Shown here: piece by piece, positions 3,988-31,487 of the stretch
Layout of the letters: every line of letters starts with the position of its first letter
Numbering within the stretch: position 1 is the first letter of the stretch
NCBI GenBank assembly: GCA_023142915.1
Contig: JAGLIO010000002.1
Coordinates: forward strand, 1 to 32,681
Direction: 5' to 3'
From: Candidatus Parcubacteria bacterium
GTDB lineage: Bacteria; Patescibacteriota; Patescibacteriia; Patescibacteriales; UBA12075
Length of the DNA stretch: 32,681 nucleotides
Program-made: the position numbers and the translations under genes
Notes under the pieces: model-generated
The model's input: the letters and a program-made list of their open reading frames with translations, nothing else
What the model was told of the DNA's origin: nothing
The model's database searches: none

Positions 3988-3991
3988 AAAT

Positions 3992-10797: not shown

Positions 10798-10808
10798 ATA
10801 TTTAGTTA

Positions 10809-10841
10809 TTCGCTTTGCGAACCCGCCTCTACGAATGCGGG
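10809..10841. repeat. Two small adjacent hairpins in the leader of the 10797 gene
   Basis: TTCGC/GCGAA arms with a 3-base loop (10809-10821) abut CCCGC/GCGGG arms with a 10-base loop (10822-10841). The G+C content is far above the surroundings, and CTCTACG resembles the arm sequence of the palindrome at 30173-30200. This is probably a decayed dispersed palindrome. Confidence 0.5.
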
Positions 10842-10872
10842 ACATGCGAATTATTATTATTAAAATTAATAG

Positions 10873-12807
10873 CTAAGCTATTTCCATATCTTTAACAGCG
10901 TCTTCTTCGTCTTCCTGATTGTTTTCTTGCCCTAAATTTTCCGCAAACTCTTTTTTTGCCTCTTCAATTTCCAAAAGCTGCCGAGGATCTGATGTGATTA
11001 ATTGATCTTCCGTATAAGAAGCGACTATTTTAATGGCGGCGTGCTTTGTGCCTGCGAAAAATATTCCTTCTCCGACACCGCATTCAAGCAATAAATATTT
11101 TTCCCCCTCGGTTAAAACAAAAGTTTTCTGCACTAAATCAATGGAAGCGCTTGACTGCTTTAACAACAACTGCAAAGACGAATTAGTCACAATAGCCTGG
11201 CCGTAAGGCGAAACCAAAAAATCATTTACGTCTTGCGTAATAGTAGTCACGCCCAAATAATATTTTCTGCATCTTTTAACCAGCGCGAAAATAAATTTCG
11301 CGCTATCCTCATGCTGCATCAGCCACCAAGCTTCATCAATTACCAATATGCGCTTCTTGGAAACGCTGCGAACAACATTCCAAATATAATTAATAATCGT
11401 ATAAATTGCTATCGGCCTTAATTCATCCTCTAAATCGCGCACTGAAAAACATACTAAAATATTATCCATTTTAACATTAGTGGGACTATTAAACAAGCCT
11501 GCAAAAGTTCCTTGAGTATATTTTCTAAGCCTTAAGGCCAAATCGGCTCCGCCTTCCATTCCTTCCATAATATCCTGCAAATCCTGCATAATCGGCGCTT
11601 CAACAGTTGCCAAATCGCAATCAGGCGTGATGTCTTTTTTTGCGTAAGTTTCCAATAAAGCGCGGTCAACCACTGAATCTTCTTCATGGCTAAGGTCGCC
11701 AAGCATTAAGCGGATCAAGCCTTTAACCGTTATCACGGCGCTGCGAATTATATCGCCGGGTTTGGAATCGCCGCCGATTGCGCGCGGCAAATCAAACGGG
11801 TTAATTTTATTTTCACTGGACAATGATAAATTAACATAAGTGCCGCCAACAGCGTCGGATAAATGCTTATACTCATGCTCGGGATCAATTACCATAACTT
11901 CGGTTCCCAGCATTAAAGAGCGCAAAATTTCCAGCTTAATCGCATAGCTCTTGCCGGCTCCGGAAGTCGCGAATACCACTGTGTTGGCGTTTTGCAAACT
12001 AAAACGATCAAAAAGAATTAAGCTGTTATTATGGCGGTTTACACCGTATAAAATTCCGTTATCAGTGGTCAGTTCGCTTGAAATAAAAGGAAATGACGAG
12101 GCAATCGGCGATGAATTCATGTTAAAAGTAATATATAATTCGTCATTGCCGAGAGGCAAAGTGGAGTTAAAGCCTTGCTCAGCCTGATAAAAAACTTTTT
12201 TTGAATAAACCAGGCGCGAACCGAAAATATTTTCAATCTCGCCGGTCAAGCGGCTTAATTCTTCTTTTTTTTCAGTATATATTGTTACATACAGAGCGAA
12301 TTGAAAAAATTTTTCTATACCCTGCGTTAAAGCGTCGCGCAAGGCTTCAATATCCCTTAGTGCTGTCTCGCGCAATGGATCGCGCGCCGCGCCTTTTTCC
12401 GCGTCTGAAATTATCTGCGCTTCCAAGCCGCCTACTTTCTTTTTTAATTGTTTTAAAATAATAGCGCTTTCAACAGGATAAAAAAACATAGCCACGTCAA
12501 AAGTGGAATTAAGATTAATAACCGGCGCGAACCAACCAACGCTTATATAGCGCGGATAATTTATAATAAAAATCGTACGCACGAACTTATCTCCCAAAAT
12601 CAAATAGTCAGGATTTATCTTCATGCTGGCGGGAGCGATTAAATCATTTATTGAAATAATGCCTTTACGATACGCTTTTTCTTCTTCAATATACTCCTTG
12701 GTTATATCAACCGAATGACTTAATTCTTTAATGGACTTTTTCTCAGCTTCCGCGCGCTGATGCTCCAATTCAAGCTCTTGCTCTTGCGCTTTTTTAGGTT
12801 CAAACAT
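10873..12807 (-). CDS. VirB4/TraC-type type IV secretion ATPase, motor half
   Basis: 644 residues. A helical N-terminal region (EPKKAQEQELELEHQRAEAE) and a VirB4-family middle domain lead to a RecA-like motor domain with Walker A FATSGAGKSY (about 279-288), the following VIDPEHEY motif typical of VirB4/TraC ATPases, and Walker B RILVIDEAWWLM (about 484-495). A conserved late motif ITQDVNDFL follows. Such ATPases hydrolyse ATP on the cytoplasmic side of a type IV secretion channel to drive substrate or pilus movement. The usual VirB4 N-terminal domain is encoded by the preceding gene (12852-13538). The gap of 44 bases, with its own stop and start, suggests a natural split rather than a frameshift. 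Confidence 0.9.
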   Translation of the reverse strand: MFEPKKAQEQELELEHQRAEAEKKSIKELSHSVDITKEYIEEEKAYRKGIISINDLIAPASMKINPDYLILGDKFVRTIFIINYPRYISVGWFAPVINLNSTFDVAMFFYPVESAIILKQLKKKVGGLEAQIISDAEKGAARDPLRETALRDIEALRDALTQGIEKFFQFALYVTIYTEKKEELSRLTGEIENIFGSRLVYSKKVFYQAEQGFNSTLPLGNDELYITFNMNSSPIASSFPFISSELTTDNGILYGVNRHNNSLILFDRFSLQNANTVVFATSGAGKSYAIKLEILRSLMLGTEVMVIDPEHEYKHLSDAVGGTYVNLSLSSENKINPFDLPRAIGGDSKPGDIIRSAVITVKGLIRLMLGDLSHEEDSVVDRALLETYAKKDITPDCDLATVEAPIMQDLQDIMEGMEGGADLALRLRKYTQGTFAGLFNSPTNVKMDNILVCFSVRDLEDELRPIAIYTIINYIWNVVRSVSKKRILVIDEAWWLMQHEDSAKFIFALVKRCRKYYLGVTTITQDVNDFLVSPYGQAIVTNSSLQLLLKQSSASIDLVQKTFVLTEGEKYLLLECGVGEGIFFAGTKHAAIKIVASYTEDQLITSDPRQLLEIEEAKKEFAENLGQENNQEDEEDAVKDMEIA

Positions 12808-12851: not shown

Positions 12852-13538
12852 CTACTCACTCAGACGTAATTGATTAACATCAACCAATTTCTGATTAATT
12901 GAAGTAGCTGGATTATAAGTATTATAATATAATTCCAAAAGGCTTTGCGTATCAAGCTGGACTGATTGCAGCCCTATTGAACCAAGTCCTGCGATAATAT
13001 TATCAACCCTGCGAGTTAATTCAACTTTGCGCCTTTGGAATATATTGCTTTTCATTTTAATTAAAGTCGCCGGCTTAAATACGTCAAAAAAACGGCTAAA
13101 AAAACCTTTTTGCTTATCAGACAGCGGATTATAAGTCAAAACAACATAAAAGCGCTTATTCATAATTTTGCTCATTGAAATAAGCTCTTGAATATATTGC
13201 ACATATTCGCCTGTCTGCATTTTTAACAATTCATTGGTTTGCTCTTTTTCTTTTTGTTTTAATGATTTTATATAATTTTCAATATTTAACTCGCGCGACT
13301 GGATAACAATCTGCAAGGGAAAATCAATGTTATTTAAAAAACTGACATAAGCGGAAATAATCGCATTCTGCTCATCCTCGCTTTTTAAAGCAAAATTAAT
13401 GCTTGAAACCAAAATCACCGCCCGCAAAGTGCCGTCGCGCATAATCACCGTATCCTCTTTTACCTCGGCAATATCCAAAAATTTTTCCGTAGAGGAAGTA
13501 ACCTTATTTCTTACCAATTTATTTTTAGGATTAGCCAT
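12852..13538 (-). CDS. TraC-like protein, equivalent of the VirB4 N-terminal domain
   Basis: 228 residues. The motif FLDIAEVKEDTVIMRDGTLRAVILVSSINFALKS near the start, followed by a strand-rich segment with LQIVIQSRELNIENYI and FYVVLTYNPL, is the pattern of the N-terminal domain of VirB4/TraC ATPases in Gram-positive-type conjugation systems. It has no Walker motifs. It lies directly before the ATPase half and 3 bases after the PrgI-like gene, so PrgI, TraC-like and ATPase form the usual order. It probably docks the ATPase to the membrane channel. The role is inferred from order and sequence pattern. Confidence 0.75.
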   Translation of the reverse strand: MANPKNKLVRNKVTSSTEKFLDIAEVKEDTVIMRDGTLRAVILVSSINFALKSEDEQNAIISAYVSFLNNIDFPLQIVIQSRELNIENYIKSLKQKEKEQTNELLKMQTGEYVQYIQELISMSKIMNKRFYVVLTYNPLSDKQKGFFSRFFDVFKPATLIKMKSNIFQRRKVELTRRVDNIIAGLGSIGLQSVQLDTQSLLELYYNTYNPATSINQKLVDVNQLRLSE

Positions 13539-13541
13539 AAT

Positions 13542-14009
13542 TTAAAAATTAACGGTTTTAATATTTTCTTTAACATTTTCATCAGCTTGCGCGTTAGTTT
13601 CTCCTCGATAAGCGCCGCTAGTATCAACAATCAAAGCCAATTCGCTTAAACGAGAAGCGCTAATATGCTTTTTGGTTATTGGCGCGTATTCTTTAATTAT
13701 TTTTTTTGCGTCTTCTGTAATATTTTCACCCTCATTAATCCAAACTCTTTTTTTGGGCTTCTTTGACGTTTGAATAAAATTTAATACAAAAAAATGAAAA
13801 GGCATTCCGTTTATTTTAAAAAACGCGAACACGCCGCTTACGCAAAAAATCATAATGCTTGAGCCTAAAAACAAAGAAAAATCAAAAAATTTATAACATA
13901 CAATCATCACCATAAAACCGAAAAACATAATAATAAACTGCCGCGCCGTAATAGGCCCGATAATTTTGTCTTCAACATCAATAAATTGCGGTACTGTAAA
14001 CTGTTGCAT
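13542..14009 (-). CDS. PrgI-like (VirB3-like) small membrane protein of type IV secretion
   Basis: 155 residues. The N terminus MQQFTVPQFIDVEDKIIGPITARQF is the typical PrgI start (a short beta element, then D-K-I-x-G-x-x-T-x-R-Q). Two transmembrane helices follow (about 24-42 and 46-64), then a cytoplasmic segment that includes the common FHFFVLNFI-x-KKPKKRVW. PrgI proteins are the VirB3 counterparts in Gram-positive-type machines and pair with the VirB4 ATPase. The C-terminal 60 residues (EYAPITKKHISASRLSELAL) are a soluble extension. Its position immediately before the TraC-like and VirB4-like genes supports the call. Confidence 0.85.
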   Translation of the reverse strand: MQQFTVPQFIDVEDKIIGPITARQFIIMFFGFMVMIVCYKFFDFSLFLGSSIMIFCVSGVFAFFKINGMPFHFFVLNFIQTSKKPKKRVWINEGENITEDAKKIIKEYAPITKKHISASRLSELALIVDTSGAYRGETNAQADENVKENIKTVNF

Positions 14010-14015
14010 AACTCT

Positions 14016-15398
14016 TTAGTATCTTAATTTTTTATTCAACTCCATTACCGCCAAAAATTCTTCCTTATTCAAACAATCTTCTCCTTTTTCTTGCCTGTTG
14101 TTTATTATAGCATCAACTCCTTGGTTGGCGCTAATACTATCTTTGCCAATATCCAAATACATTTTATTCAGCTTGCTTTGTCGCCAAGCCTTAATGCCTG
14201 ACAAGCGCTGCGCGTAATTTTCTTCTTCCAAAAATTCAATTTTTTCCGATATTTTTTTTATTCGTACGTTTGAATCATTGCTTAAACGGCGAAAATTAAG
14301 CAAATCCATTTCCTTTAATTCGTCAATAGGACCAAGCAATTTCGGAGTATGCTTAACATCGTCCATTTTTACTTTTCCGCTTTTCACCTCAGGACGTTTC
14401 ATAGAAGGTTGCTTTGCAATTTCAAATTTTAATTTAGAAGGCTTAAAAATTTCTTTCTTGTCTTTTTTATTTATTGCCGACTTGCCCGCCGTAGCTTTAG
14501 CGAAGGAGGGATTATCCTCCAATGCCTTATCAGCTAAAGGCTTGCCCCGCGCAACTTTAGCGTAGTGGGGCTTGTCCCGCGCATCCTTGGCGTAGTGGGG
14601 CATATTCTTGAAATCATAATCCATATCCCGAGCGGATTCAATAGTTATTTCTTCGCTTCGGACTGGCGCGTTTTCCTGTTTTTTTTCTTCTTCAATTCTT
14701 TTTTTGTCAGCTAAAACCAATATATTATCAGCGTAAATCTCGCTAAAAGCCAAACCGCCGGAATCTATATCTTTGGATAATGTTTGTTTTGTATCAACTT
14801 TATTTCTAATTCCTTTTAAATATATTGTAATTATCCCGAAAAAACGCTTGCGTAAATCTTCAGAACTGAAATTCACTCCGATTTCTTTAGACGCCGCGTT
14901 AACAATATTATCATAATTAAGCTGTTTTTTTTGCTTTTCCGTATTATCAATTTCAAAACTTTCCAATTTTTTAGCCAATCCCTTTACTTCTTCTTCGTCT
15001 TCAGTTGAAAAAAAGAAATTTGAGCCTCTTACTTTTGTTTCTTCTTTTCTGTTTTGCGCTAAATCATTCAATTGTTCGCTGTCATTTCCGCCATCAATAG
15101 TATCCGCGCGCGCTTCTTTGGCTATTCCCAAATAATCAGCCACTACAAACAAAACATTATCTTTAAGATCATCAACCAAGCGCTCAGCCTGCCGCGCGTC
15201 CAAATCATGCTCAAACACAAAATACTTGGATAAATCCAAAATTGAAATATCCTTTACCATCACCCGCATTATCACCATCGCCAAACTAACGCCGTATTTT
15301 TCTTCCAATTCTTTAATTGCAGTCATAACCTCTGGCGCGGAAATTGCCATTCGCAATTCTTGCGGCAACTGATTAAATTTTTCTAAATAATTTAGCAT
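14016..15398 (-). CDS. Hypothetical cytoplasmic protein of the secretion locus, with in-frame peptide repeats
   Basis: 460 residues with no signal peptide or membrane helix. The N-terminal helical domain (about 1-100) starts YLEKFNQLPQELRMAI and resembles the start of the next upstream gene product (FNQKLNRLPKDVQEFL), so the two are probably distant paralogs. A second helical region at about 165-240 is followed by a charged linker. Residues 267-306 are four tandem 10-residue units (from PHYAKDARDK to PSFAKATAGK), an obvious insertion of the type also seen in RadA. The C terminus is helical and ends LNKEEFLAVMELNKKLRY. No family was recognised. Its place between VirB6-like and PrgI-like genes suggests an accessory cytoplasmic component. 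Confidence 0.7.
   Translation of the reverse strand: MLNYLEKFNQLPQELRMAISAPEVMTAIKELEEKYGVSLAMVIMRVMVKDISILDLSKYFVFEHDLDARQAERLVDDLKDNVLFVVADYLGIAKEARADTIDGGNDSEQLNDLAQNRKEETKVRGSNFFFSTEDEEEVKGLAKKLESFEIDNTEKQKKQLNYDNIVNAASKEIGVNFSSEDLRKRFFGIITIYLKGIRNKVDTKQTLSKDIDSGGLAFSEIYADNILVLADKKRIEEEKKQENAPVRSEEITIESARDMDYDFKNMPHYAKDARDKPHYAKVARGKPLADKALEDNPSFAKATAGKSAINKKDKKEIFKPSKLKFEIAKQPSMKRPEVKSGKVKMDDVKHTPKLLGPIDELKEMDLLNFRRLSNDSNVRIKKISEKIEFLEEENYAQRLSGIKAWRQSKLNKMYLDIGKDSISANQGVDAIINNRQEKGEDCLNKEEFLAVMELNKKLRY
14481..14600 (-). repeat. Four tandem in-frame 30-nt units in a secretion-locus gene
   Basis: The region is exactly 4 x 30 bases and encodes four units of the form P-x-x-A-K-x-A-x-x-K or close variants. 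The two units nearest the gene start share CCCCACTACGC and are almost identical; the other two have diverged. Units carry short inverted arms such as CCCGC/GTGGGG and CCCGCC/GGAGGG. They are the same family as the two units in radA at 8018-8077. Confidence 0.8.
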
Positions 15399-15460: not shown

Positions 15461-16633
15461 TTAATCAAAACGCCTAATCTCCTCTTCAACCGCCATTCTC
15501 TCTAAACTGCCTGCTGTATATTTATTTGCCTCAATTTTCAAACTTTCCAATTTCTTTTTATTATCAATCTCCTCTTCAATCGCCAGCCGCTCCAATCCAC
15601 CCTCGCTGAATTGCTCTTCCTCGCGCCTTAATTCGTCAATCTTTTTTTCTTCTTCGGTTTTTGGCGGCCCCCAAATTTTTCGCGTTTGCCCAATCGTTTC
15701 TTTTTCCTTTTTAACCGGAATAATCTCCCATTCTTCCATTGGCACATCCCGCAAACTTTCCGGAAAAAACTTTAAATTGCGATACAATTGCAATAATTTC
15801 TGCACTAATTTTTTTTCTTCCGTTCCTAAAAGCTTAGCGTTTTTAGATTCGGTAATATATTTGCTCAAAGCCAAATTATTAAACATCCCGCTGCCATAAA
15901 CTTTAATAAAATCCTGAATCCAATTCCCAATCGTAGGCGACTGCGTCTTGCTGTCCATCTCAAATCGTTCGTGGGTGAGGAATTCGCCGTTATTATAAAG
16001 CTCGTTTTCTAATTCATTTTTGAAATTTGAATCATCAACAAACAGCTGAATTAAATTACTGTTATAATCTTCTAAAAACGGGTTTACATGATCTGCCAAA
16101 AAGCATGATAACATACCGGAAAATATTTCCCGGCTGTCTTCTTTTTCTTTCTGCTCATTATATTTGCGTGGTTTAATTTCTTCTTCTTCCGGCTTATTAG
16201 GAATATGCTCTTGAAAATCATCAGCCAATTCTTCTTTAAAAAATTCATTTTCCTCTTTAATGGCTTGTTTTTGAATTTCAATATATTTTTCATAATCTTT
16301 AATCTTTGCACCTTGCTTTTCTAAATATTTTTTTGCTTTCCCGTTAAACCAATCATCAACAATCAACAATCTTATGCCGACAATTTTCAGCGCCATTTTC
16401 TTTGCATTTTTTTCATCAAAACCAAAGACATTAATTAATTCTAATTCTAACTCTGGAATCTCTAATTCTTTAAAATACAATCTGCTTATTATTTCAGCAA
16501 CTTTTGTAAAATCATTGCTGTTTATATTATTTTCCGAGCAAATCAAAAGATTCAATTCAGAAGCTTTCATTGAAATTAAAAACTCCTGAACATCTTTAGG
16601 CAACCTATTCAATTTTTGATTAAAATTATTCAT
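15461..16633 (-). CDS. Hypothetical cytoplasmic protein of the secretion locus
   Basis: 390 residues, acidic and highly helical, without signal or membrane segments. The start FNQKLNRLPKDVQEFLIS and the following helical pattern match the N terminus of the neighbour at 14016-15398, suggesting an ancient duplication with divergence. The middle contains LVQKLLQLYRNLKFFPES. The C-terminal tail holds two copies of a short helix, GGLERLAIEEEI and GSLERMAVEEEI, about 30 residues apart. No known family was recognised. It follows the VirB6-like gene with a 2-base gap and so is co-expressed with the secretion machine, perhaps as a cytoplasmic adaptor (inference). Confidence 0.7.
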   Translation of the reverse strand: MNNFNQKLNRLPKDVQEFLISMKASELNLLICSENNINSNDFTKVAEIISRLYFKELEIPELELELINVFGFDEKNAKKMALKIVGIRLLIVDDWFNGKAKKYLEKQGAKIKDYEKYIEIQKQAIKEENEFFKEELADDFQEHIPNKPEEEEIKPRKYNEQKEKEDSREIFSGMLSCFLADHVNPFLEDYNSNLIQLFVDDSNFKNELENELYNNGEFLTHERFEMDSKTQSPTIGNWIQDFIKVYGSGMFNNLALSKYITESKNAKLLGTEEKKLVQKLLQLYRNLKFFPESLRDVPMEEWEIIPVKKEKETIGQTRKIWGPPKTEEEKKIDELRREEEQFSEGGLERLAIEEEIDNKKKLESLKIEANKYTAGSLERMAVEEEIRRFD

Positions 16634-16635
16634 AA

Positions 16636-19050
16636 TTATACTGACATTATTTCATCATCTGTTTTTATCTTTTTTGCGTCATCACTATCTTTATTATGCG
16701 TTAATATTATTTCACGCATTTCACGAACCAATTCCGGATTTTCGCCTTGTTTATGCATTGATTTAAGTTTGGCATAAGTAATGTTAGAGGCTACATTATT
16801 ATTTGCTACAACAACTTGTGAACTATTATTATTTCTAATCATTTTATATAAATCATCTTTCTCAATTTTATTAATATCTTTAGCTTTGGCATTTTTCAAA
16901 TAATTGCCTAAAGCTTTATGGTCAACATCCAATCCTTTTTTAAATGCTTCGGTAATATCTCCGGTTAATTTAGCATGAAGCTTCGCGTATTTATCATCCA
17001 TTAAACTATCTTCATCTCTAGCGCCCTTTAAGCCCTCGCCAACACCTTCTTGATATTTTCTTCCTCTCTTAAATGCGGTTTCAAGAACTCTTGTCACATC
17101 TTCGTCATGGTACTCTTCCAATGCCTTTACAACATTTTTATCTTTATAAGCGTCTGCTCTCAATTTTGTAGAATCAACTTTTCCTTTGTCAATACGATTG
17201 CCAAACTTTTCTCTTCCTTCTTTTGTTTTAAAGTCATAAGCGATATGGGCTTGATTTTTATCAATTTCCGTATTTAACTCTCTTAATTTAATCTGATTTG
17301 CCTGTAATACATCTCTTGCCCTGTCAACGGCTTTGTCATCCTTGAAATCTCCATCTTTAGCCAATTTGAGCGCTGCTGCCATTTTTGTTTCTCCTGATGA
17401 GGTTTTATCATTCATTAATTGATCTAATTGGCTGGCGTTCATATTGGCATCAGTGTTTTTCTTGGTAGCTTTTTCAATCGCTTCAACTTGAGCCCTATGC
17501 AAGGTTGCCCGAGCATCGCTTTGCGCGCTTTTCCAAGAATCATGGGCGGCAACTCCCAGCGCGCCCATTGTTTTTTGTTCTTTTTTATCTATTACTAATG
17601 ATTTTGCAGTAACTTGATTATCTTTGTCTAATTCCTTAAATACTCCTTTTTCATCTGACTTATATTTCTTTCCGTCATATTTCATTATTGCGTCATTAGG
17701 CTTTTCCAACTGCTCGGAATAATAATCTCTTTTTGCTTGTTTTAAACTTTCTTTTTTACCGCGCCTAGCCGCAAGCGCCGTTCTTATGTTATTAGGGATA
17801 TTATAAGCCCCCGTACCCAAAGTAGTTGCGATTCCCTTATCTCCAAGTTTTGTTCCGAGCATTTTATCAACTCCCCTGCCAGCAAATTTATCCGCGGTTC
17901 CCAATGTAGCCAAACCAATCCTTCCACCGGCTTTTGCGGTAGCTTTTGCACCATCAGCAGCTTTATCTTTACCCCATTTAGCAAATTTTGCCGCCCTATC
18001 AGTTGTCTGTCTCTTAACAAAACCAAGCCCCATCCCCTTCGCCTTGCTCGCTAAATTCGCGCCATAGCTGGCGCCCATGGCGCCTAGGGACATAGTAATT
18101 TTCATGGCGCCGATTAAGAGTCCAATTGCAAGAATAAGCTGCATTGCGTTTTGGCTATCTCCTATTTCTGTAATTGTTGCCTGAATATTTTCGGCACTTC
18201 TTAAATCTAAAAAATCATAAGCATTTTTGGCTATAGTCAAAGAAAGCCAAGTAAAAAAAGCCAAAACAGGACCAACGATTAAGTATTTAGTAAATTCGCC
18301 CCACCACTGCGTCCAATATTTTCCTCCACCCGGAACCGCTGTTGATAAAAACGCCAAAGGCGACAAGACAATCAAAATCCAAAACATAATCAAGCGCATT
18401 ATCAATATGCCCATCAACATAATCATTATAAATAAAGCAATAACCATAAAAATCAAAGCCAAGCCAGCCGCATAAAACATTTGCGAATCCATATCGCCAA
18501 AATCAACCGCCTTGCTTAATGCAAGTAATTCATCAATATGAAGCATTACCACAAAATTACTGCTAGCTCCGGCAAAAGCATTGCTAAAAGTCAGCATTAC
18601 AATTTGTGAAATATCAATTAAAAAAAGACAAATTGTTTTAGAAAAATTTATTAACACCGCCATAATCAATAATTTTGGCAGATATTTTTTCATTGAATAA
18701 TTTTCCAAACGCAATATCGTAGCAAAAGCTATCATTAAAAGCACCAAAATAAAAAACATATTGCACAAATCCCGAACAATTCTCCATCCGTAAGCCACCC
18801 CGTCAATATCAAACTCTTGTAATGTAAAAAGCCAATTTACGACATGCATAACAAGAGTTAACATTGTGCCAAAAGCGCTTGCAATATATAAAGTAACCCA
18901 CGCCAAAAAACCGACAATCGCACTTCCGTCAGCCCTTACAATATTCGCACCAACCCCCTCAACCCCAAAAATATTCGCAGGCAACACAAAAAATACCAAT
19001 GCAAGCAGGGTAAAAATTAATATTCCTTTTTTTAGTTTTTTATTTAACAT
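16636..19050 (-). CDS. VirB6/TrbL-like polytopic membrane protein with long cytoplasmic-type tail
   Basis: 804 residues. A signal-like first helix (about 8-28) is followed by several further transmembrane helices between about 44 and 335, including LALIFMVIALFIMIMLMGIL and the motif FWILIVLSPLAFLSTAVPG, then WTQWWGEFTKYLIVGP. This is the pattern of the VirB6/TrbL channel protein. From about 335 to the end the protein is hydrophilic, rich in Lys, Asp and Ala, and helical, far longer than in classical VirB6. The ATG lies inside the last codons of the upstream ORF6N gene (7-base overlap), indicating translational coupling. It should form the inner-membrane core of the secretion channel together with PrgI and VirB4. 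Confidence 0.85.
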   Translation of the reverse strand: MLNKKLKKGILIFTLLALVFFVLPANIFGVEGVGANIVRADGSAIVGFLAWVTLYIASAFGTMLTLVMHVVNWLFTLQEFDIDGVAYGWRIVRDLCNMFFILVLLMIAFATILRLENYSMKKYLPKLLIMAVLINFSKTICLFLIDISQIVMLTFSNAFAGASSNFVVMLHIDELLALSKAVDFGDMDSQMFYAAGLALIFMVIALFIMIMLMGILIMRLIMFWILIVLSPLAFLSTAVPGGGKYWTQWWGEFTKYLIVGPVLAFFTWLSLTIAKNAYDFLDLRSAENIQATITEIGDSQNAMQLILAIGLLIGAMKITMSLGAMGASYGANLASKAKGMGLGFVKRQTTDRAAKFAKWGKDKAADGAKATAKAGGRIGLATLGTADKFAGRGVDKMLGTKLGDKGIATTLGTGAYNIPNNIRTALAARRGKKESLKQAKRDYYSEQLEKPNDAIMKYDGKKYKSDEKGVFKELDKDNQVTAKSLVIDKKEQKTMGALGVAAHDSWKSAQSDARATLHRAQVEAIEKATKKNTDANMNASQLDQLMNDKTSSGETKMAAALKLAKDGDFKDDKAVDRARDVLQANQIKLRELNTEIDKNQAHIAYDFKTKEGREKFGNRIDKGKVDSTKLRADAYKDKNVVKALEEYHDEDVTRVLETAFKRGRKYQEGVGEGLKGARDEDSLMDDKYAKLHAKLTGDITEAFKKGLDVDHKALGNYLKNAKAKDINKIEKDDLYKMIRNNNSSQVVVANNNVASNITYAKLKSMHKQGENPELVREMREIILTHNKDSDDAKKIKTDDEIMSV

Positions 19051-19586: not shown

Positions 19587-19588
19587 AT

Positions 19589-20095: not shown

Positions 20096-20101
20096 AATTA
20101 T

Positions 20102-20614: not shown

Positions 20615-20902
20615 TCAATTTAACCAAATAAACTTTAAAACCTCCCATTTATGGGTAACGGCGTATCCTCCTGCTAAAATAATTAACCCTAAAAACAACA
20701 ACAAACTAACAACCGCGAATAAAATAATTTTAGTAACTGGAATTCCAGTTGCTTTTCCAAATTTTAAAGCAGCTGTTCCGATTCCCGGCGCTAAAGATTT
20801 AATCGCCATATTCGCGCCTTTTTCAGCCAAACCGATATCAGAATTAATTTTGGATTGGCGTAAACGGCTGGAAATGTCATCAAAATTTTTTGTGTTTGGC
20901 AT
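20615..20902 (-). CDS. Small single-pass membrane protein of the secretion locus
   Basis: 95 residues from the ATG at 20902 (MPNTKNFDDISSRLRQSKIN). A soluble, Gly/Ala-containing N-terminal part (KGANMAIKSLAPGIGTAALKFGKATG) precedes one transmembrane helix (about 58-82, ILFAVVSLLLFLGLIILAGG) and a short tail HKWEVLKFIWLN. A TTG at 20914 overlapping the giant gene stop is an alternative start; the ATG is preferred because it lies 8 bases after that stop and gives the MPN start also used by the neighbouring ORF6N genes. The family was not recognised. A small membrane subunit or a chaperone for the giant protein are possible roles (inference). Confidence 0.65.
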   Translation of the reverse strand: MPNTKNFDDISSRLRQSKINSDIGLAEKGANMAIKSLAPGIGTAALKFGKATGIPVTKIILFAVVSLLLFLGLIILAGGYAVTHKWEVLKFIWLN

Positions 20903-20910
20903 AAATTTTA

Positions 20911-23900
20911 TCAATTACTTGCCGAAGCGCCCCAATTATCAGTCAAAGCAACACCTATTTTATCATAAGTTCCGATTGTGTAATAATGTATAAACTCATG
21001 CGGCTCTTCAATGTTTGGTCTGTCATTAAGTTCGCCGTAAGCCGCCGGAGAATCAACAACCCCGTCAGCCCAGTCAATATCAATCCTAGATAAAGGTAAT
21101 TGTTCCTCGTCAATAACTGAAGTAAACTTCAAAGTATAGTATCCTGAATTAATGATTGTAAAAGTGGGGGCCACTCCGCCCCAAACAACATTATCACTGC
21201 CGTCTTCCAACGTAACATTGTCTATTATAGGTAAAATTTTACAGGTAGGTCCGTTAACGGCCGCGTATCTATCAATAATATCGGCGGGCAAACAATCTGC
21301 GGGTGGTAATATATTATCAATAATATTATCTATGTCGTATCTGTTGGCGCCCCAGTCCCAAATCACGGTGCGGTAGCTTTCCACAAACAAACTGCTGATA
21401 ATATCTTTAGTGTCGTTTGAATCAACATTGTCTAAATTATTTATTAAATCGCAGGTTTCGCCGGCAGGGCATTGCAAATCCAAATAATGCTCATCACTAT
21501 TTTCGTCTCCATAATCCCAAGCCCCTCCAGGATAAGGATGAGCGCAGACAATTTCTTCATGATTACTGCAACGACCTATGTCTTTGCAAGACGGTCCATG
21601 GCACCCGTAAGGCAAGCCTGATATTACCGATTCACTTAAATTTTCCCTAAAAAATAAACGATCGTATTCGTCTGTTGAAACTATGCCGTCCCAGTCTTCA
21701 GGGCTTTTGACTTCAGCTGGAATTATAGCAGAGCCAAACGGAGGATCTTCATCTCCGTAAACATATCCGCCAAGCCCGCTAAGAGCATAATCTGAACCGG
21801 TTCGCACCCTGCCTGTCCACGCTTTGTCGTCAGCCGTATCAGAAACAACCTGATAAAATTTATCACACTGCAAACGATAATTCTCGGGATACATTAATTC
21901 GCTTGTTGTGTAATTGTATATCATAACAGGCGGATCTGAATCTGGTTCATTGTGAACAAGATCTCCGTCATACACATACCAGCTACCGAAAATTGCTGGA
22001 TACGCTACGTCATTTTTTGGAACACATGTATATCTTATATTATATTCAGTTCCAAGATCCCATCCACCTCCACATTCGCCATCTTCATAAACCATAACTG
22101 CTAATTTATAATCTGCATCAAGACAACCATCATAATATTCAGAATAATGACTGCCACATCCGGCGCCAGATAATGCTATATCTAATCCAGACCTCCATTC
22201 TCCTTCAGTTACAAGACTTCCAATTCCAGTCCAATCCACGATACCTGCCCAAAAATCTAAATCACAACAATAATCATCCTTATCAAATATTATCTTAGAT
22301 GTCCTTTTCTCCACAAAATCAAAATTAGCGTCCATGTCGGCGCAGTAGTAAACAGGGAATTTGCCTTCATAGCCTACTCCGCGTTCAATAATGGAAGAGC
22401 TTTTTATTCTGTCAACAGGATACCACATAAGGCAAGCGTCCCTGTTTCCGGGATATCGATCATATTCCATGCAATATCCTTCCATTCCCTTATCTATGCC
22501 TTTAATCATGTCATAGCTGTTGCAGGTAAAACTTTCTTGAGTAGGGTAAAGCCGGCAAGTCTTTGGAATAAAATCAGGCGTTTCAATCACCGGCGTTATT
22601 CTTATATTGTCAAAATAAATACTGCCTTTCAAATCTGCCCCTGAAACGGATTCGGCTTGCAGAGAAATCTCCATAAAACCGCTGGTTGGTTTAAAACTTT
22701 TTGTCATCGCTGTCCAGCCGTAAACGCTTTCATCAGATTCAAAAATTTCATTCGCTCCTCCAGTTAAAACTACTTGCGCTTTTGCATCGTTATTGGTGCT
22801 GCTTAAATGATAAGTGTTAACCATGTAGCTTATATAATAATCTTGTCCGACCTCAACCTGCGTGGAATTTGAAACAAGCCGCTGTCCCGCCCCCAATTTT
22901 AGCAATGACCGGCCCTCCATTGGATAAACAATGCCTGAAATCTCTGCTTCATAAGGATTATTTATAACATAAGCGTAATCAGGATCCCAAATGGTTCCGT
23001 CTAAATACCAATCAAGCGGATAATTGTCAGAATCATACATTTCGAAACTGCCATTACCCACATTGGCCTCAGCGCCTACTTCTTGCATATTTCCCAAATG
23101 ATATTGATCCATTATGACATAGCCGGATGTATCTTGATCATTGTTTATGTTAAAACTGTGAATGCCGGAATAATTGACAAATGACTGGCACTGGCCGCTT
23201 GAATTCATTTTAACGCAATTCCCAACGTTGTAACATTTATGCTCGCCCGTCATCAAGTCTTCCATGGAACTCCTGCAAGCAAGCCATTCAGCGCATACTC
23301 TATCAGGTTGGACTTTAATAAGCTGATTCGCGTTGCGATTTGTGGCGGCTCCTACTGCCGGGCTTGTTCCGTTCCCATCATTAATAGTCAAATTAGCGTC
23401 AAATTTCAAGCCGACAAAACCTGTTCCTGTTATTGCTCGTTCATTAAGTAAAACACATCCTTTTTCAAAATCAACAACGCCGTTACATGAAGACATGTCA
23501 AGATCATAATTAATTTGATAATCAATTATTGCTTTCTTTAATTCAACATCGCCAGATGCTGCATCCACCTCTATAGCACAGTCAGTGTTTGAATCAGAAT
23601 AAATCAAAGCGCTTTTAACCTCTGTTAATGATAATTGCAAAGCAAAGCTATTGCCGATATTTAATAAATTATTATTTTCATCCAACCGATAAATATCATT
23701 TGGGCAATCAATTGTTATATTTCCCGCGTTATTTGAACCGGCTAGCCTATATAACGTATAACTGCCCATATTAATATCCTGAACATTAGCAACCCATCCG
23801 TCGGGAACACCGTTTGAATCATCGTCTTGTAAAAAATCATTATTAAATATTAAATTAGTTGAAAATTTGCTTACAGGATCAATTAACTCGGAACAGCCAC

Positions 23901-26900
23901 TCTCGCTTGCCGGACAAACACCGGTCCATCCGGCGCTTGGCTGATAAACCTGAATTTCTTGCCCGCCATAACCGATTGTTTTAAATTCAGTCAAACATTT
24001 ATAATTAAATTTATCTAAAACGCAAGAATTATAGCACTTATTGTCCTCGCACTCCATATTCTCTGCGCAATCGTCATTTGAATCGCAAACATTTCCATCA
24101 CTTGCGCAATCGCTTGATTCATGGCAAATTTCATTTTCAATCGGACCAATATCCGGATCGTTAATTTCTCCGCTATTATCAATATCGCATTTTTTTATCT
24201 GCTTTTTATACCAGCCTATTGAATTAACATCGCCATACGGTTGAATGTATTCGCATACCTGATCGCCCGGATCTTTAAAATATTCCGTTCCATCGCCAGC
24301 AAGCCAAATCTCGCATTGAACCGCGTCGCTGCCGCAAAGAATGGTTTCATACTTATCAGGATTATTTTTTAAAAATATATCGCTATATTTAACCTGATTT
24401 TCATAAGTATAAGGTTCTCCCAGTCGCTCACAACCTTTATCAGCGGAATAACATTGCTTGTCTTTGTCGTATACAGCAAAAATAAATTTATCTTTTGGAA
24501 TATTAATTGTAGGAGAAACGTCTGTCGGAGCCAATGGCAAATCAGCGCTCCCAAACTCACTATAATTATACGTATCAATCATTAATTCGCATCCAACCGC
24601 GCTTTCGTGGCAAAGTTTGCTAAATTGCCGTAAATTATGTATTTCGCTTTGGGTATTCAGATAAGATTCACATCCCAAATTATAATATCTATCCTGAATT
24701 ATATCTGATACGTCATACATGCAAGCGTCAATATCCCAGGAATTTTTAATCAAATAATATCTATCAATAATTTCAACCAAACGAATATTATCTATATAAA
24801 ACTTGCTATCGGCCTGAATGATTATTTTTTCTTCATTGCTAATTATATAATCCAGAGTGTCGTTATTTAAAGAAGTAAGATTAAAATTATAAAATTTCCA
24901 CTCCGAATCTAGCTCATAATTATTTGCCTCTCCAAGCTCAAATTCAATATCAACGTTATCAACCCCAAATCCGATTCCGGTAAACGCGCCGGCATCAGCG
25001 GACTTGGCAATAAAGCTGATATAATATGATTTATCCAATTCCAATATTGAGCCTAAAATCTTAAAAATCTCATTATCAGCGCCTGAAACATAGAGAGAGT
25101 GCCCGCCGACCATTAAAGCCTCGCTTGACGGATTTAATGCGACCGGCAAATCGCCTTGCCAATTTTCATTAGTTCCTGATTCAATATCATCATTTAAAAT
25201 AAATCGCATATTATTTCCGCTGCTTCCTGAATATTCACGGCATCCGGCTTGTTTGGCTGAACATTTTTTGCCTTCTCCCGGAACGGCATCATATAAACAC
25301 CGTTCATGCTGAGAATTCCATAGTCCGCCATTTTTACAAAAAACCGCTTCTCCCGAATCAAACACGCAAACCTTGGTGTTGCTTTGGTTCTCGCAATCAG
25401 CTGCCACGCATTTGCTTTCACAGTCAAAATCACCATTGCATTCTTCATTGCACCAAAAAACAGCCGTAGCTTCATTTTCAATTATATTGTTTTCAGTGCG
25501 CCGATACGGATGGCAATTGTCAGAGCAGCTTATTGTGCGAGTGTATAAATGATAAGTAATCTCACCGTTTTTATTATAAAATTCCCGGCAGTCTGAATTG
25601 TAATCAGGATCGGTCGCCGGCTTATTATATATTTCTTTGCTACATTCGCTTGCGTCATTTCTGGTTGTTTGCGGACCATAATCGCTTGCAATACCGTCTT
25701 TTTCAAGATTATAAACGCGCAATTGATAACCGGTCTCGCTTGAACCCTCCCATGTGTAAAATTCCGCGCAAGACTCATCCGGCTTGCGACATTGCCTTAA
25801 TTCCGAATAATATTCTCGCGCCTCGGCGCCTAAGCCCAGTTCGTCCAAATTGGTAAATTCATCGCACCCTACGGAGCTTGCTCCGCATTTTTCCGCTGAC
25901 GCCGGCACGAAATATTGCGGCTGCAATGAATCAAAAGCGGTCTGCGTTTGAAAATATTCATTATAGCCGACGCATTCATCAGGGCAATAATCATCAGCCG
26001 TTGCCTTGCCGGCTATGCTCATTTTATCTTTAACTGCAGTGTACATATCACAGCCGACTTCATCGGCGTTGCACCAGCGACTAAAATTATCGCATTTAGG
26101 AGAATCTATTCCAGCTACTGATTCATAGACAATATAAACATCGCTAATCTGCGCTAAAGCGTCATCACCTGACCCATCCAGACAGTCATTTACCGACTGA
26201 TGACCTACTAATTGCATAGATATTGTAATAGTCTGCCCGGCAAAAGCTGAAATATCATAATTTATTGCTCCGGCATCATAATCAGTTAAATTATTAACAC
26301 TCCATACTGACGGTTCCCATGATTCAATGGTAGCTAAAACACTGTTTCCAGTGGCATCTCTTATCTCTAAATAATAAGCATCGGGGATATCAGGCAGACC
26401 GGGATGCAAATCAAAGCTTCTCATTTTAACATTGCGCCAAAGATGCAAAGCAGTCGCGCTGTTAGGAACATTAATAGGGTCTGAAATAAGCATTCCGTCA
26501 TAATCATTATTGCTAAGCCCGTCTAGGTTGGGCGCGTCTTCGCCAAAGCCCCAAGTATTCGGACCAAGTCCCAATTCCCAATCGCCGCCGTTGGCAACCA
26601 AATAAGCGCCGCTTGGATTATCAACTCGCGTGCCCTCCGGTCCTGAGCCCGGAGGACTTCCGCAATGCCCTAATACAGGATCAATTGATTCTTGAAAAAT
26701 CCAATTCGCAATCTGCATAAACGACGTTACCGATTCTGATTCTGAACAATTTAAATAATCCGGGGCTAATTTTTGATAAACCACATTACTTTCTTGGTAA
26801 TCTTTGTACCGTGTGGCTCTTTCATTAAACTCTAATTGCACAGCGTCAATTAAACAGCCAGCTTCTTGATTTTCTATGCTGACAAATATTTGATCACAAG

Positions 26901-29154
26901 GCACGTTAATTAACGGCTTGTGCGCAACTTCAAAACGTTGCCAATTATTAGAAGTGTTTATTATTTTTTCGCTCATTTCCAAAACACCGTCTTCCATTCC
27001 AATACCTGCTTCTATTTTTACGTCTGTTCCGCAATTTTTCATATAAAGGGAAAATGTAATTGGCATTTCACTAAAATCCAAGCCATTAACGTCGTTCGGA
27101 ATTGGAAATTGCGTATTCGTTAAATCAACAGCTCCGAGAGCAGCGCTCCATCTGCCGTCATACCCGTCTTCAACCCTTACCCACGCGCCGTCATCAGATT
27201 CAAAACTGGAATTATTTATTAAATTAGTTCCAAGACCTTGTTTAACCCGTATAAATTCATGGCACCCTTCGGCATCTTCATCGCATTCTTCAACGTCTCC
27301 GTCTAAATACATTTTATTGCCATTGAACATATTACAATCATATTCATTGTTTAAAAAATCATAATCTTGGCAATATGCTTTACAGCCGGCATTATCAGCG
27401 TTACAGCCCTCGTAATTAAGCGTATTTTCCAAATAAGAAGCAGACTGTCCATCTTGTTTTTTAAATGTCTGACAAGTGTTAAATTCGGAGTCGCAGGACT
27501 CTCCGTTAAAGTCCCATTTTCGCCTCTCTTTAGAGCAATAACCGTATAATTCGCAAGAACCGTCATCGTTTTCTTTTATGCAAGACTGCTCATCAGCGCA
27601 ATAATTATCATTGCGCACAATCGCCAGCACGCTATCGCTGTCTTCGCCCATAATTTTCTCTGTAATAATTTCCGGACCAGGACCTTCTTTTTTACAATAA
27701 TTCAAAGGAGCTTTTAAAACCCAGGTTGGATCAACCAACCCCTTGCACCAATTAGCAAAATACCCGTCATGCTCGTCACCTGCGCTAAAACACGCGACCA
27801 TATCGCCTAAATCTTTTGTACCCTCAATGTTTCCAAGATTATCCTTAATATATTCCGCCGCCAATTCCCATCCTACCGGAATAATCCTGAATTTTCGCAA
27901 AATCAGCATTGAACGATAAGGAAAGCCTCCGTTATGCTCCGGCTCCAGCCCGTCAGAATCAAAACCAAATGTCCAATCAGGATTCAAATATCCTTTTTCA
28001 ATGGCATCGCTAACGCTATTTTTTTCAGCAATCGCCTCCCGAAATTTATCAGTAATCACGCAATTAGTCGGCCCTGCTTTTTGCGGATCAGGACATGCTG
28101 TTAATTCTGCCAAAATCTCATAATCTCCGCGCACATCAAAAACAGGTTCATTCAAAACCGCAAACCGCGCTTCAGCGCCTTTCGCGCCTTCGCTGTAAGG
28201 ACTAGATTCATAATCGCTAAACCCCGTAAAACCGCCCCAATCGCCTTGATAACTGTTCTCAGGAAACTTCAAAACCAAGCCGTCTTTAAACCATTTTTTC
28301 GCTAATTTTCCAATTAAAGTATTTATAAACATATCAATTGAATCGGCAATTACGTTACCAGTATAAACATTTTCTCCGTCAGTAGCCGTATCAAGTGTTT
28401 CTTCAGCATAATCATGAACCAACTCAGATGGAGTTGTTATATATCCGCTTATTTTTTCGGTTACTGGTTTAAATGTATTTTTCATCCATACATTTGTTTT
28501 TTCTTTTTTTTCATCAGCCACTTTGTCAACTATTTTACTTTGCAAAGACAAGGCAGTTCCAAGATCATTTTGCCTTGGATCGTACATGGCCTGAAAACGA
28601 TTTAAAAAATTAGGATCATTAAGAGTTTCCTCCCAGTTGTCTTTCATTTCAGTAAACGTACAATCAGGCTCACCAGGACGTCTGCTTCTATATAAACCTA
28701 AGCCGACTTTAAGCTTTATTGCCGGATTTAATTCGCAAAGATCAAAATTATACTCTTTGCCAAATTCTTCCATAAAATCCCCGGCAGCCACATCAGCCGC
28801 GTTAGTTAAAAAATCTCCAAAATTATCAGTCTGAAACATCGGTGCTTGCCCTTTGTCGCCGGTAGCCAAATAAGTAGCGGCGTCATAAGCCAACCTATCT
28901 AAAAATGTTCCCAAAGCAGACTTAAAAGCAATGGCAGCCGCGGCATCGCCCTCCTTTGTGCTTGTCCAATTCCAAAAAGAAACCGCCCAGTCTTTCATAT
29001 TTTGAATTATGCCTTCCTCAGTTGCCGCTGTTCCCTTTGCATCTGTTGTCATTACCTCCGCTGCCCATACATTAATGGCATTAAACAACGTAGAAAATGA
29101 AATTAAAAAAATTAATAAAACAATAATAGCTTTTTTTATTTTATATTCTTTCAT
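20911..29154 (-). CDS. Giant secreted Cys-rich protein with carbohydrate-binding-like domains
   Basis: 2747 residues. A signal peptide (KKAIIVLLIFLISFSTLF, ending near NVWAAE at about 32) leads to a roughly 500-residue region without recognised domains. From about 580 to 1760 a Cys pair motif C-x4-x-[GQ]-C recurs at least nine times, for example CNADNAGC, CDEDAEGC, CHESAVGC and CPASESGC. Between these lie three or four jelly-roll modules like carbohydrate-binding family 4/9, recognisable by starts such as NLINNSSFESDDGAW and GNGSFEMYDSDNYPLDW and ends such as YIDNIRLVE and YFDNIRITP. The C terminus (WADGVVD...FIHYYTIGTYDKIGVALTDNWG) resembles a PKD-type domain. There is no obvious C-terminal anchor. 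It is the first gene of the secretion block and is probably a surface or released adhesin. Function unknown. Confidence 0.85.
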   Translation of the reverse strand: MKEYKIKKAIIVLLIFLISFSTLFNAINVWAAEVMTTDAKGTAATEEGIIQNMKDWAVSFWNWTSTKEGDAAAAIAFKSALGTFLDRLAYDAATYLATGDKGQAPMFQTDNFGDFLTNAADVAAGDFMEEFGKEYNFDLCELNPAIKLKVGLGLYRSRRPGEPDCTFTEMKDNWEETLNDPNFLNRFQAMYDPRQNDLGTALSLQSKIVDKVADEKKEKTNVWMKNTFKPVTEKISGYITTPSELVHDYAEETLDTATDGENVYTGNVIADSIDMFINTLIGKLAKKWFKDGLVLKFPENSYQGDWGGFTGFSDYESSPYSEGAKGAEARFAVLNEPVFDVRGDYEILAELTACPDPQKAGPTNCVITDKFREAIAEKNSVSDAIEKGYLNPDWTFGFDSDGLEPEHNGGFPYRSMLILRKFRIIPVGWELAAEYIKDNLGNIEGTKDLGDMVACFSAGDEHDGYFANWCKGLVDPTWVLKAPLNYCKKEGPGPEIITEKIMGEDSDSVLAIVRNDNYCADEQSCIKENDDGSCELYGYCSKERRKWDFNGESCDSEFNTCQTFKKQDGQSASYLENTLNYEGCNADNAGCKAYCQDYDFLNNEYDCNMFNGNKMYLDGDVEECDEDAEGCHEFIRVKQGLGTNLINNSSFESDDGAWVRVEDGYDGRWSAALGAVDLTNTQFPIPNDVNGLDFSEMPITFSLYMKNCGTDVKIEAGIGMEDGVLEMSEKIINTSNNWQRFEVAHKPLINVPCDQIFVSIENQEAGCLIDAVQLEFNERATRYKDYQESNVVYQKLAPDYLNCSESESVTSFMQIANWIFQESIDPVLGHCGSPPGSGPEGTRVDNPSGAYLVANGGDWELGLGPNTWGFGEDAPNLDGLSNNDYDGMLISDPINVPNSATALHLWRNVKMRSFDLHPGLPDIPDAYYLEIRDATGNSVLATIESWEPSVWSVNNLTDYDAGAINYDISAFAGQTITISMQLVGHQSVNDCLDGSGDDALAQISDVYIVYESVAGIDSPKCDNFSRWCNADEVGCDMYTAVKDKMSIAGKATADDYCPDECVGYNEYFQTQTAFDSLQPQYFVPASAEKCGASSVGCDEFTNLDELGLGAEAREYYSELRQCRKPDESCAEFYTWEGSSETGYQLRVYNLEKDGIASDYGPQTTRNDASECSKEIYNKPATDPDYNSDCREFYNKNGEITYHLYTRTISCSDNCHPYRRTENNIIENEATAVFWCNEECNGDFDCESKCVAADCENQSNTKVCVFDSGEAVFCKNGGLWNSQHERCLYDAVPGEGKKCSAKQAGCREYSGSSGNNMRFILNDDIESGTNENWQGDLPVALNPSSEALMVGGHSLYVSGADNEIFKILGSILELDKSYYISFIAKSADAGAFTGIGFGVDNVDIEFELGEANNYELDSEWKFYNFNLTSLNNDTLDYIISNEEKIIIQADSKFYIDNIRLVEIIDRYYLIKNSWDIDACMYDVSDIIQDRYYNLGCESYLNTQSEIHNLRQFSKLCHESAVGCELMIDTYNYSEFGSADLPLAPTDVSPTINIPKDKFIFAVYDKDKQCYSADKGCERLGEPYTYENQVKYSDIFLKNNPDKYETILCGSDAVQCEIWLAGDGTEYFKDPGDQVCEYIQPYGDVNSIGWYKKQIKKCDIDNSGEINDPDIGPIENEICHESSDCASDGNVCDSNDDCAENMECEDNKCYNSCVLDKFNYKCLTEFKTIGYGGQEIQVYQPSAGWTGVCPASESGCSELIDPVSKFSTNLIFNNDFLQDDDSNGVPDGWVANVQDINMGSYTLYRLAGSNNAGNITIDCPNDIYRLDENNNLLNIGNSFALQLSLTEVKSALIYSDSNTDCAIEVDAASGDVELKKAIIDYQINYDLDMSSCNGVVDFEKGCVLLNERAITGTGFVGLKFDANLTINDGNGTSPAVGAATNRNANQLIKVQPDRVCAEWLACRSSMEDLMTGEHKCYNVGNCVKMNSSGQCQSFVNYSGIHSFNINNDQDTSGYVIMDQYHLGNMQEVGAEANVGNGSFEMYDSDNYPLDWYLDGTIWDPDYAYVINNPYEAEISGIVYPMEGRSLLKLGAGQRLVSNSTQVEVGQDYYISYMVNTYHLSSTNNDAKAQVVLTGGANEIFESDESVYGWTAMTKSFKPTSGFMEISLQAESVSGADLKGSIYFDNIRITPVIETPDFIPKTCRLYPTQESFTCNSYDMIKGIDKGMEGYCMEYDRYPGNRDACLMWYPVDRIKSSSIIERGVGYEGKFPVYYCADMDANFDFVEKRTSKIIFDKDDYCCDLDFWAGIVDWTGIGSLVTEGEWRSGLDIALSGAGCGSHYSEYYDGCLDADYKLAVMVYEDGECGGGWDLGTEYNIRYTCVPKNDVAYPAIFGSWYVYDGDLVHNEPDSDPPVMIYNYTTSELMYPENYRLQCDKFYQVVSDTADDKAWTGRVRTGSDYALSGLGGYVYGDEDPPFGSAIIPAEVKSPEDWDGIVSTDEYDRLFFRENLSESVISGLPYGCHGPSCKDIGRCSNHEEIVCAHPYPGGAWDYGDENSDEHYLDLQCPAGETCDLINNLDNVDSNDTKDIISSLFVESYRTVIWDWGANRYDIDNIIDNILPPADCLPADIIDRYAAVNGPTCKILPIIDNVTLEDGSDNVVWGGVAPTFTIINSGYYTLKFTSVIDEEQLPLSRIDIDWADGVVDSPAAYGELNDRPNIEEPHEFIHYYTIGTYDKIGVALTDNWGASASN

Positions 29155-29390: not shown

Positions 29391-30089
29391 TTAATTTACT
29401 TGCTCTTCCGCCAAAGCCTCGCTAAAACTCTCCATTAAATCTTTATCGCTGATTTGATCAAGAAGCGCTTTTTCCATTCCCGCTTCAATCAATAATTTCC
29501 TTAAATCATCCGCACTCATTTCCTCGCTTCCCAAATCACTAATTTGCGCGTTATTTGGTATAATCTGCGCGTTCAACTCTTCCAAGTCAATATTATTCGC
29601 AGTTCCCGGATTAACCAATTGAGCGTCTTCATTAAACAAAACATCATTATCGCAATCCCTGCCAGCCGGACAATTGGGATTTTTATTATTATCAATTTCT
29701 TCCTTATCTGAAAAACCGTCGCTGTCAGAATCTTCCAAATAAGGCGAGGTTTTATAAAAATTCAGTTCATCATAATCTGAAAGGCCGTCTTTGTCAGTAT
29801 CTTTATTTTGAAGATCAGCATCGCTTAAATCCGAACAATTTCCACTGGGACAAAATTTTTCCAAATCAGATCCGCTATCCCTGTCTTTTACTACGCTCGT
29901 TTTCGGCGAAAACGGAGAATAAATTCCTTTTTGAATATTAATTATTCCAAAAACAAAAACAATCACGGCAAAAAAAGCCAGAACTGCCAAAGCAATTTTT
30001 TGGCTAACTCCCAAACCGCTAAAAATATGAGATTGATTAGTTTCAATCTTATCTTCTGTTTGATTGTCTTTGTTATGATTTTCTTGCAT
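29391..30089 (-). CDS. Membrane-anchored protein with thrombospondin type-3 calcium motifs
   Basis: 232 residues. A polar N-terminal segment is followed by one transmembrane helix (about 31-51, IALAVLAFFAVIVFVFGII), then an extracytoplasmic region. Two thrombospondin type-3/EF-hand-like calcium loops are visible: DTDKDGLSDYDEL (about 97-109) and DSDSDGFSDKEEI (about 118-131). Two Cys pairs, CPSGNC and CPAGRDC, bracket them and may form disulfides. The tail is acidic and helical and ends MESFSEALAEEQVN. It is a likely surface or periplasmic structural protein; no enzyme activity is indicated. It precedes the giant gene on the same strand but is separated from it by the palindrome-rich gap. Confidence 0.8.
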   Translation of the reverse strand: MQENHNKDNQTEDKIETNQSHIFSGLGVSQKIALAVLAFFAVIVFVFGIINIQKGIYSPFSPKTSVVKDRDSGSDLEKFCPSGNCSDLSDADLQNKDTDKDGLSDYDELNFYKTSPYLEDSDSDGFSDKEEIDNNKNPNCPAGRDCDNDVLFNEDAQLVNPGTANNIDLEELNAQIIPNNAQISDLGSEEMSADDLRKLLIEAGMEKALLDQISDKDLMESFSEALAEEQVN

Positions 30090-31474: not shown

Positions 31475-31487
31475 TTTTATTAAATTT

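Follow-up and report, generated by a model that had tools for sequence, protein, structure and literature searches.

A giant cysteine-rich exported protein encoded next to virB6 in a patescibacterial type IV secretion locus, a candidate host-contact arm

Gene content of the locus

The window, by which we mean the whole 32,681-nucleotide stretch analysed here (contig JAGLIO010000002.1 of assembly GCA_023142915.1, Candidatus Parcubacteria bacterium), carries a long run of minus-strand genes in the order KsgA, a 232-aa protein with TSP3-like repeats, a giant exported protein, a 99-aa membrane protein, three ORF6N genes, a VirB6-like protein, two conserved proteins of 390 and 460 aa, PrgI, a TrsD-like protein, VirB4, a 236-aa protein, a DsbA-like protein and RadA, where KsgA and RadA are names that we presume from their domains. 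Coordinates below are those of the window, on the minus strand unless marked otherwise. The VirB4-like ATPase (10873..12807) exceeded the cut-offs of both NF045971 (347.3 bits against 325) and PF19044 (93.3 against 25.8), as did the PrgI/VirB3-like protein (13542..14009) that of PF12666 (42.3 bits against 27); a VirB4-family ATPase and PrgI/VirB3, as expected of an MPF-FATA-type type IV secretion system (T4SS), are thus both present. The TrsD-like protein (VirB4 N-terminal; 12852..13538) matched NF041427 with an E-value of 5.5e-8 and 32.9 bits, under that model's cut-off of 200.

The putative VirB6/TrbL-like membrane protein (16636..19050) has several hydrophobic segments and was identified by its topology, its position and its family. 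PF04610 (TrbL) matched 5 of 30 members of the VirB6-like family (best E-value 2.8e-7), while the Pfam search returned no PF04610 match for the window copy itself. On these grounds, we read it as the VirB6/TrbL component of an MPF-FATA-type T4SS. The 390-aa (15461..16633) and 460-aa (14016..15398) proteins are conserved in loci of this kind, and the 236-aa protein (10135..10845) is a conserved, predicted single-pass protein. On the other side of VirB6 lie the 99-aa protein (20615..20914), an ORF with a single hydrophobic stretch between the giant and VirB6, and, 5' of the giant, the membrane-anchored 232-aa protein (29391..30089), whose TSP3-like repeats scored below the cut-off. The three tandem ORF6N-domain genes at 19044-20611, also between the giant and VirB6, have near-identical starts (repeats D1-D2), and ORF6N-like genes were seen in the same gap in seven relatives.

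The giant gene and its cysteines

The giant gene (P0001; 20911..29154) is a single uninterrupted ORF with an ATG start, encodes 2747 aa and takes up 25% of the window. A preliminary description made from the sequence had reported a 2747-residue signal-peptide protein that fills a quarter of the window and has at least nine C-x4-x-[GQ]-C pairs; all of this held on measurement, and the strand (minus) can now be added. The N-terminal export/anchor segment (residues 1-31; 29062..29154) contains a hydrophobic stretch at residues 5-31, the same test found none elsewhere in the protein, and a hydrophobic N-terminus was also present in 52 of the 56 relatives tested. No LPxTG sortase anchor was found in the window protein when LP.T[GAS] was sought.

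The protein has 97 cysteines. Exactly nine pairs follow the pattern C-x5-[GQ]-C, whereas 2000 shuffled versions of the sequence averaged 0.35 and never exceeded 3, and when spacings of 1 to 11 were compared, every other spacing yielded at most one cysteine pair; the nine pairs are beyond chance. In an alignment of the giant with 39 relatives, 48 of its 97 cysteines are invariant across the 40 sequences, and these include all 18 cysteines of the nine pairs. Searched alone, the giant retrieved no family in Pfam or NCBIfam (E<=1) and no PDB match by sequence.

The DsbA-like thioredoxin encoded further along the locus (8611..10131; PF13462 at 9.3e-21, PF01323 at 4.7e-13) also carries DKNYY repeats, an odd combination for a T4SS locus. 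A DsbA-like protein lies downstream in 2 of 4 testable loci, and searches of the genome for VKOR and DsbB found neither. As a side point, this neighbour is a possible disulfide catalyst for the giant.

Domain organization of the giant

The protein begins, after its export segment, with a module at residues ~60-250 (28405..28977) that has conserved cysteines C140 and C165 and is common to short T4SS-locus proteins of other patescibacterial classes. It was poorly predicted (pLDDT mostly 40-65), and neither its profile nor that of region 60-660 retrieved any match in the PDB; when region 60-660 was scanned with Pfam, 1 of 32 members had a single stray match, which we disregarded. Then comes a class-specific, conserved, cysteine-rich core at residues ~330-640 (27235..28167), of which ~339-490 was modelled with confidence as mostly helical. 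AlphaFold2 gave a mean pLDDT of 58.9 for residues 36-1014, with confident stretches at ~339-490 and 640-795, and of 78.4 for residues 1015-2195.

The remainder alternates between predicted jelly rolls and cysteine-rich segments. Jelly roll 1 (residues 640-778; 26821..27237; CBM_4_9/CBM16-like) precedes a lineage-specific insertion at residues ~806-1014 (26113..26739), which is unbroken only in the match to one relative of the same genus, the matches of other relatives stopping at ~802 and restarting at ~1016. A cysteine-rich segment with C-x5-GC pairs (residues 1016-1310; 25225..26109) leads into jelly roll 2 (residues 1312-1467; 24754..25221; CBM22/CBM_4_9-like), and a second such segment, with C-x5-[GQ]-C pairs (residues ~1475-1760; 23875..24732), into an all-beta segment (residues 1765-1950; 23305..23862) that may be a further jelly roll; its strands are predicted with pLDDT mostly of 73-93, lower at the end, and it retrieved no individual fold match. 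Jelly roll 4 (residues 2027-2190; 22585..23076) is again CBM-like. The C-terminal segment (20914..21237), which we take to be PKD-like in look although no tool matched that label, ends without a membrane anchor.

The jelly rolls are related to one another, profile comparison within the giant giving probabilities of 97.3 (rolls 1 and 2), 95.5 (1 and 4) and 86.5 (2 and 4). PF02018 (CBM_4_9, E<=0.01) matches roll 2 in 20 of 32 family members, roll 1 in 15 of 25 and roll 4 in 3 of 25, and in the Pfam search it never matched the window copy of the giant itself. Against the PDB, the roll 2 profile retrieved the CBM22 xylanase 4xup with an E-value of 2.4e-9. Foldseek and VIA comparisons of the predicted models recovered the beta-sandwich jelly-roll fold of a CBM_4_9-like module: roll 1 resembles CBM16/CBM4-type folds (Foldseek E 7e-6; VIA Z 10-11.3), roll 2 resembles CBM22 (Z 13.8, rmsd 3.2, 137 aligned), and roll 4 resembles CBMs (Z 15.4, rmsd 2.2, 134 aligned to 8xmz). 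By profile and predicted fold, then, the three jelly rolls at ~640-778, 1312-1467 and 2027-2190 resemble carbohydrate-binding modules. Three or four such modules had been proposed from the sequence, with structure prediction as the suggested check; prediction and profiles agree on three, and the fourth (1765-1950) stays a candidate. We would like to note that function is not deducible from a CBM-like fold, since such folds also have structural roles, and that phage tail and baseplate proteins are among the fold matches as well. Matches to the receptor-binding domains of bacterial toxins were attributed to the common CBM-like fold and not to kinship with toxins, and the Foldseek alignments of the 1015-2195 model to long multidomain proteins (ranks 1-6) were dismissed on account of rmsd values above 30.

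Distribution within the class

The giant was found in 11 of 12 genomes of the family and 54 of 60 of the order, and the six misses in the order sample were still negative with a profile of residues 1019-1775. Across the class, 132 of 143 genomes have it: 129 were detected by the profile of residues 60-660, and three of the 14 misses were recovered by that of 1019-1775. TrsD is present in 10 of the 11 class genomes in which no giant was detected, so either the giant can be absent alongside a T4SS or these assemblies are broken. Among 56 copies of at least 2300 aa in the fetched loci, length ranges from 2358 to 3818 aa with a median of about 2730; masked bases account for an apparent open frame of 26,141 residues in one relative. 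Most of the relatives that carry a name are Candidatus Falkowbacteria, Parcubacteria and Patescibacteria assemblies, with Uhrbacteria more distant. We take Falkowbacteria and Uhrbacteria to belong to class ABY1, which would be consistent with the radA neighbour here. In ABY1, radA is described as a neighbour of the T4SS (PMC12102498, in its accessible text). The bearers of the giant are tiny, probably host-dependent bacteria.

Linkage to the secretion genes

Linkage was counted over the same 56 copies, with shorter or cut copies dropped and only loci with enough flanking sequence considered. A VirB6-like gene lies 3' of the giant on the same strand, 5 to 7545 bases away, in 37 of the 40 loci whose 3' flank extends for 5 kb or more, and the TSP3-like gene lies 5' of it in 43 of 47. 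The fetched stretches around giants extended to PrgI in 18 of 31 cases and to TrsD in 16 of 29. In the phylum sample, 15 genomes of the class contain both giant and TrsD; nine have them on one contig and strand and six on different contigs. The preliminary description had the giant in fixed company with VirB6/PrgI/VirB4-like genes, which is true of VirB6 and less so of PrgI and VirB4; it had also made the giant the first gene of the block, and strictly it is not, because the conserved TSP3-like protein and KsgA lie ahead of it on the same strand.

Four of the six split genomes belong to one family, f39. In one of its genomes (G121; two contigs, L216 and L257), the giant and TrsD are truly apart, and VirB6 there has no adjoining module protein; in this genome and in a second of the family (G084; L258), the giant and the VirB6-VirB4 block stand on different contigs and both are kept. 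The giant has left the T4SS locus in this family.

The gap between giant and VirB6, in loci with VirB6 in reach, also holds a 21-member family of small membrane proteins with a hydrophobic stretch towards the C-terminus. It is possibly an unrecognised T4SS subunit.

The N-terminal module in other classes

A profile of the class proteins, run over 285 genomes of the phylum, gave 27 matches, 24 in the class and three outside it. The three are open frames of 544-624 aa that align to the first part of the profile only, and in each case KsgA and VirB6 flank the frame in a locus of the same type. With these three included, a profile of residues 70-250 matched 23 of 192 genomes (16 in the class, seven outside), and the next profile round 27 of 192 (16 in the class, 11 outside). 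TrsD was found in 180 of 192 genomes of a search drawn with the same settings; most genomes of other classes with TrsD therefore have no detectable module.

In nine of the 11 outside genomes, module and TrsD share a contig, and in all nine they are on the same strand with the module 4.0-10.2 kb upstream; in the other two genomes the contigs differ. The profile had been built without four of the 11, and three of these four have module and TrsD on one contig in the same orientation. The preliminary description had suggested a search for the same gene order in other CPR genomes; the outside loci that were read run KsgA, (TSP3-like), module protein, VirB6, PrgI, TrsD, VirB4. The exported module proteins of other classes are about 280-1114 aa long; the eight that were read span 280-1112 aa and have 0.7-1.8% cysteine, compared to a median of 3.8% in the giants. 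Since the module is found on T4SS-locus proteins elsewhere, it is the shared part that is a T4SS-locus module, and the cysteine-rich extension is seen only in the giant's own class.

Two further loci from other classes are worth recording. In L259, an exported-looking 573-aa ORF stands at the module position without a profile match. In L255 (12574-19090), a module protein of 1112 aa is followed by a further ORF of 1054 aa ahead of VirB6.

Interpretation

The combination of cysteine-rich export, CBM-like modules, T4SS neighbourhood and a first domain shared with distant relatives makes the giant a strong candidate for host contact. We lean, with somewhat better than even confidence, towards the giant being an extracellular, membrane-tethered component of the T4SS locus which in this class has expanded into an arm that binds glycans and contacts the host; a role as host-contact adhesin, which the preliminary description had put forward, is plausible. 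The first ~250 residues would be an old module, borne in several patescibacterial classes by an exported protein whose gene lies immediately 5' of virB6. In the giant's class, this protein would have grown several-fold by the addition of segments with invariant cysteines, presumably disulfide-braced, that alternate with CBM-like jelly rolls. Sec would export it, its N-terminus may be held at the membrane near the VirB6/VirB3/VirB4 channel, and its cysteines would be oxidised outside the cell, perhaps by the DsbA-like protein from the same locus. The long arm could then bind glycans on the surface of a host or neighbour and keep the secretion channel against its target.

Another explanation, which we regard as unlikely but deserving of serious weight, is that the giant is a general disulfide-braced surface or coat protein whose ligand is the wall or exopolysaccharide of its own cell and which shares an operon with the T4SS by history only. 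A large, conserved protein that is kept in family f39 though unlinked from TrsD is what such a coat would look like, its CBM modules could bind the cell's own glycans, and its C-terminus has no membrane anchor. Against this, the N-terminal module accompanies the T4SS locus outside the class in every same-contig case, and VirB6 follows the giant almost throughout.

Less probable still, in our estimate, is a scaffolding role in the T4SS, in which the arm would build a chamber or extension outside the cell and the jelly rolls would be building blocks and not sugar binders. The very strict conservation of the cysteines and the large size kept in all 56 copies would suit a scaffold, as would the commonness of jelly rolls in the phage tail and baseplate proteins that the models also match; however, several modules have CBM_4_9 sequence matches, and a scaffold would be expected in other classes as well, where the protein is short. 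That the giant is cargo, an effector passed by the T4SS into a host, agrees with its being encoded at a T4SS locus but is very improbable given its hydrophobic, Sec-type N-terminus in nearly all relatives tested, its dozens of invariant cysteines suited to folding outside the cytoplasm, and its nature as one conserved family with no catalytic domain by Pfam or NCBIfam. The giant had been described as either part or cargo of the machine, and the N-terminal module shared with other classes speaks for part.

Returning to the host-contact arm, a broader proposal can be made more tentatively, at rather less than even confidence: the N-terminal module may define an unrecognised extracellular subunit of patescibacterial T4SS loci, encoded 5' of virB6, which in one class carries a giant disulfide-braced, glycan-binding arm. 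If the arm is real, secretion channel and host adhesin would form one built-in unit in this class, and the giant would supply the contact protein so far missing from a type of T4SS that is reported to be essential for its bearer's survival. By combining a T4SS-locus module with glycan-binding-like domains across a whole class, the giant provides a concrete candidate for the contact component that can be put to the test; it also gives a means of tracing its smaller equivalents in other classes and could serve as a marker when the surface of uncultivated cells is labelled.

Comparison with known systems

TraN of F-type T4SS is a cysteine-rich surface protein that stabilises mating pairs, and the F transfer region also encodes thioredoxin-like proteins. 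Like TraN, the giant is a cysteine-rich, predicted surface protein with a thioredoxin-like protein encoded nearby. TraN is an outer-membrane protein of diderms and, we assume, several times smaller, and the giant has no match to the TraN sequence family in Pfam or NCBIfam at E<=1.

No published description of the giant was found in a search of the main texts of the literature, with thin coverage of subscription papers and preprints. What is new is a T4SS-associated surface protein unusual in its size, its cysteine array and its class-wide fixation. The patescibacterial T4SS is described as related to MPF-FATA, and no adhesins such as PrgB were detected in it (PMC12102498). The window shares with that system the set of VirB4, a TrsD-like protein, PrgI/VirB3 and VirB6, a chromosomal location, radA nearby (in class ABY1) and ksgA as a frequent neighbour, and the accessible text of that paper does not mention a giant gene. 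A further parallel is offered by the adhesins of Gram-positive conjugation systems, PrgB of pCF10 among them: they too are large, exported and encoded with a monoderm T4SS, and a role in binding the polymers of the partner cell has been proposed for them (PMC12857230, accessible text). The giant differs from PrgB in being cysteine-rich, in lacking LPxTG and in its CBM_4_9-like modules, where PrgB has a polymer adhesin domain; no Pfam match to any adhesin domain, the polymer adhesin domain included, was obtained at E<=1, and the fold models span residues 36-2195.

Among other patescibacterial proteins, the giant membrane proteins of Vampirococcus are also long surface proteins proposed for host attachment, but they carry WD40, PKD, DUF11, integrin and fibronectin domains, and the accessible text describes no T4SS link (PMC8080830). 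The putative glycan-binding adhesins of Southlakia epibionticum are similarly envelope proteins with polysaccharide-binding-type domains, and both they and the T4SS are reported as essential for epibiotic growth (PMC10633639, accessible text). They differ from the giant in having VCBS, dockerin and FnIII domains and in being encoded far from the T4SS cluster SEML1_0006-0019. The essentiality of the T4SS for epibiotic growth comes from one strain tested, that of Southlakia (PMC10633639, PMC12857230), and for Saccharibacteria one account calls the part played by the T4SS completely unknown (PMC11665869, accessible text).

Other features of the window

Repeats of 30 nt at 8016-8075 and 14479-14598 lie in frame within the radA-like gene and the gene for the 460-aa T4SS-locus protein, and encode repeated AKA..GKP-like peptides. 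On the plus strand, 2218-7153 encodes an HlyD-type adaptor and an AcrB-type RND transporter, which is of note in bacteria thought to be without an outer membrane, and 31413-32630 encodes a TSP3-containing protein of 405 aa, within whose gene 144 nt are duplicated (D4).
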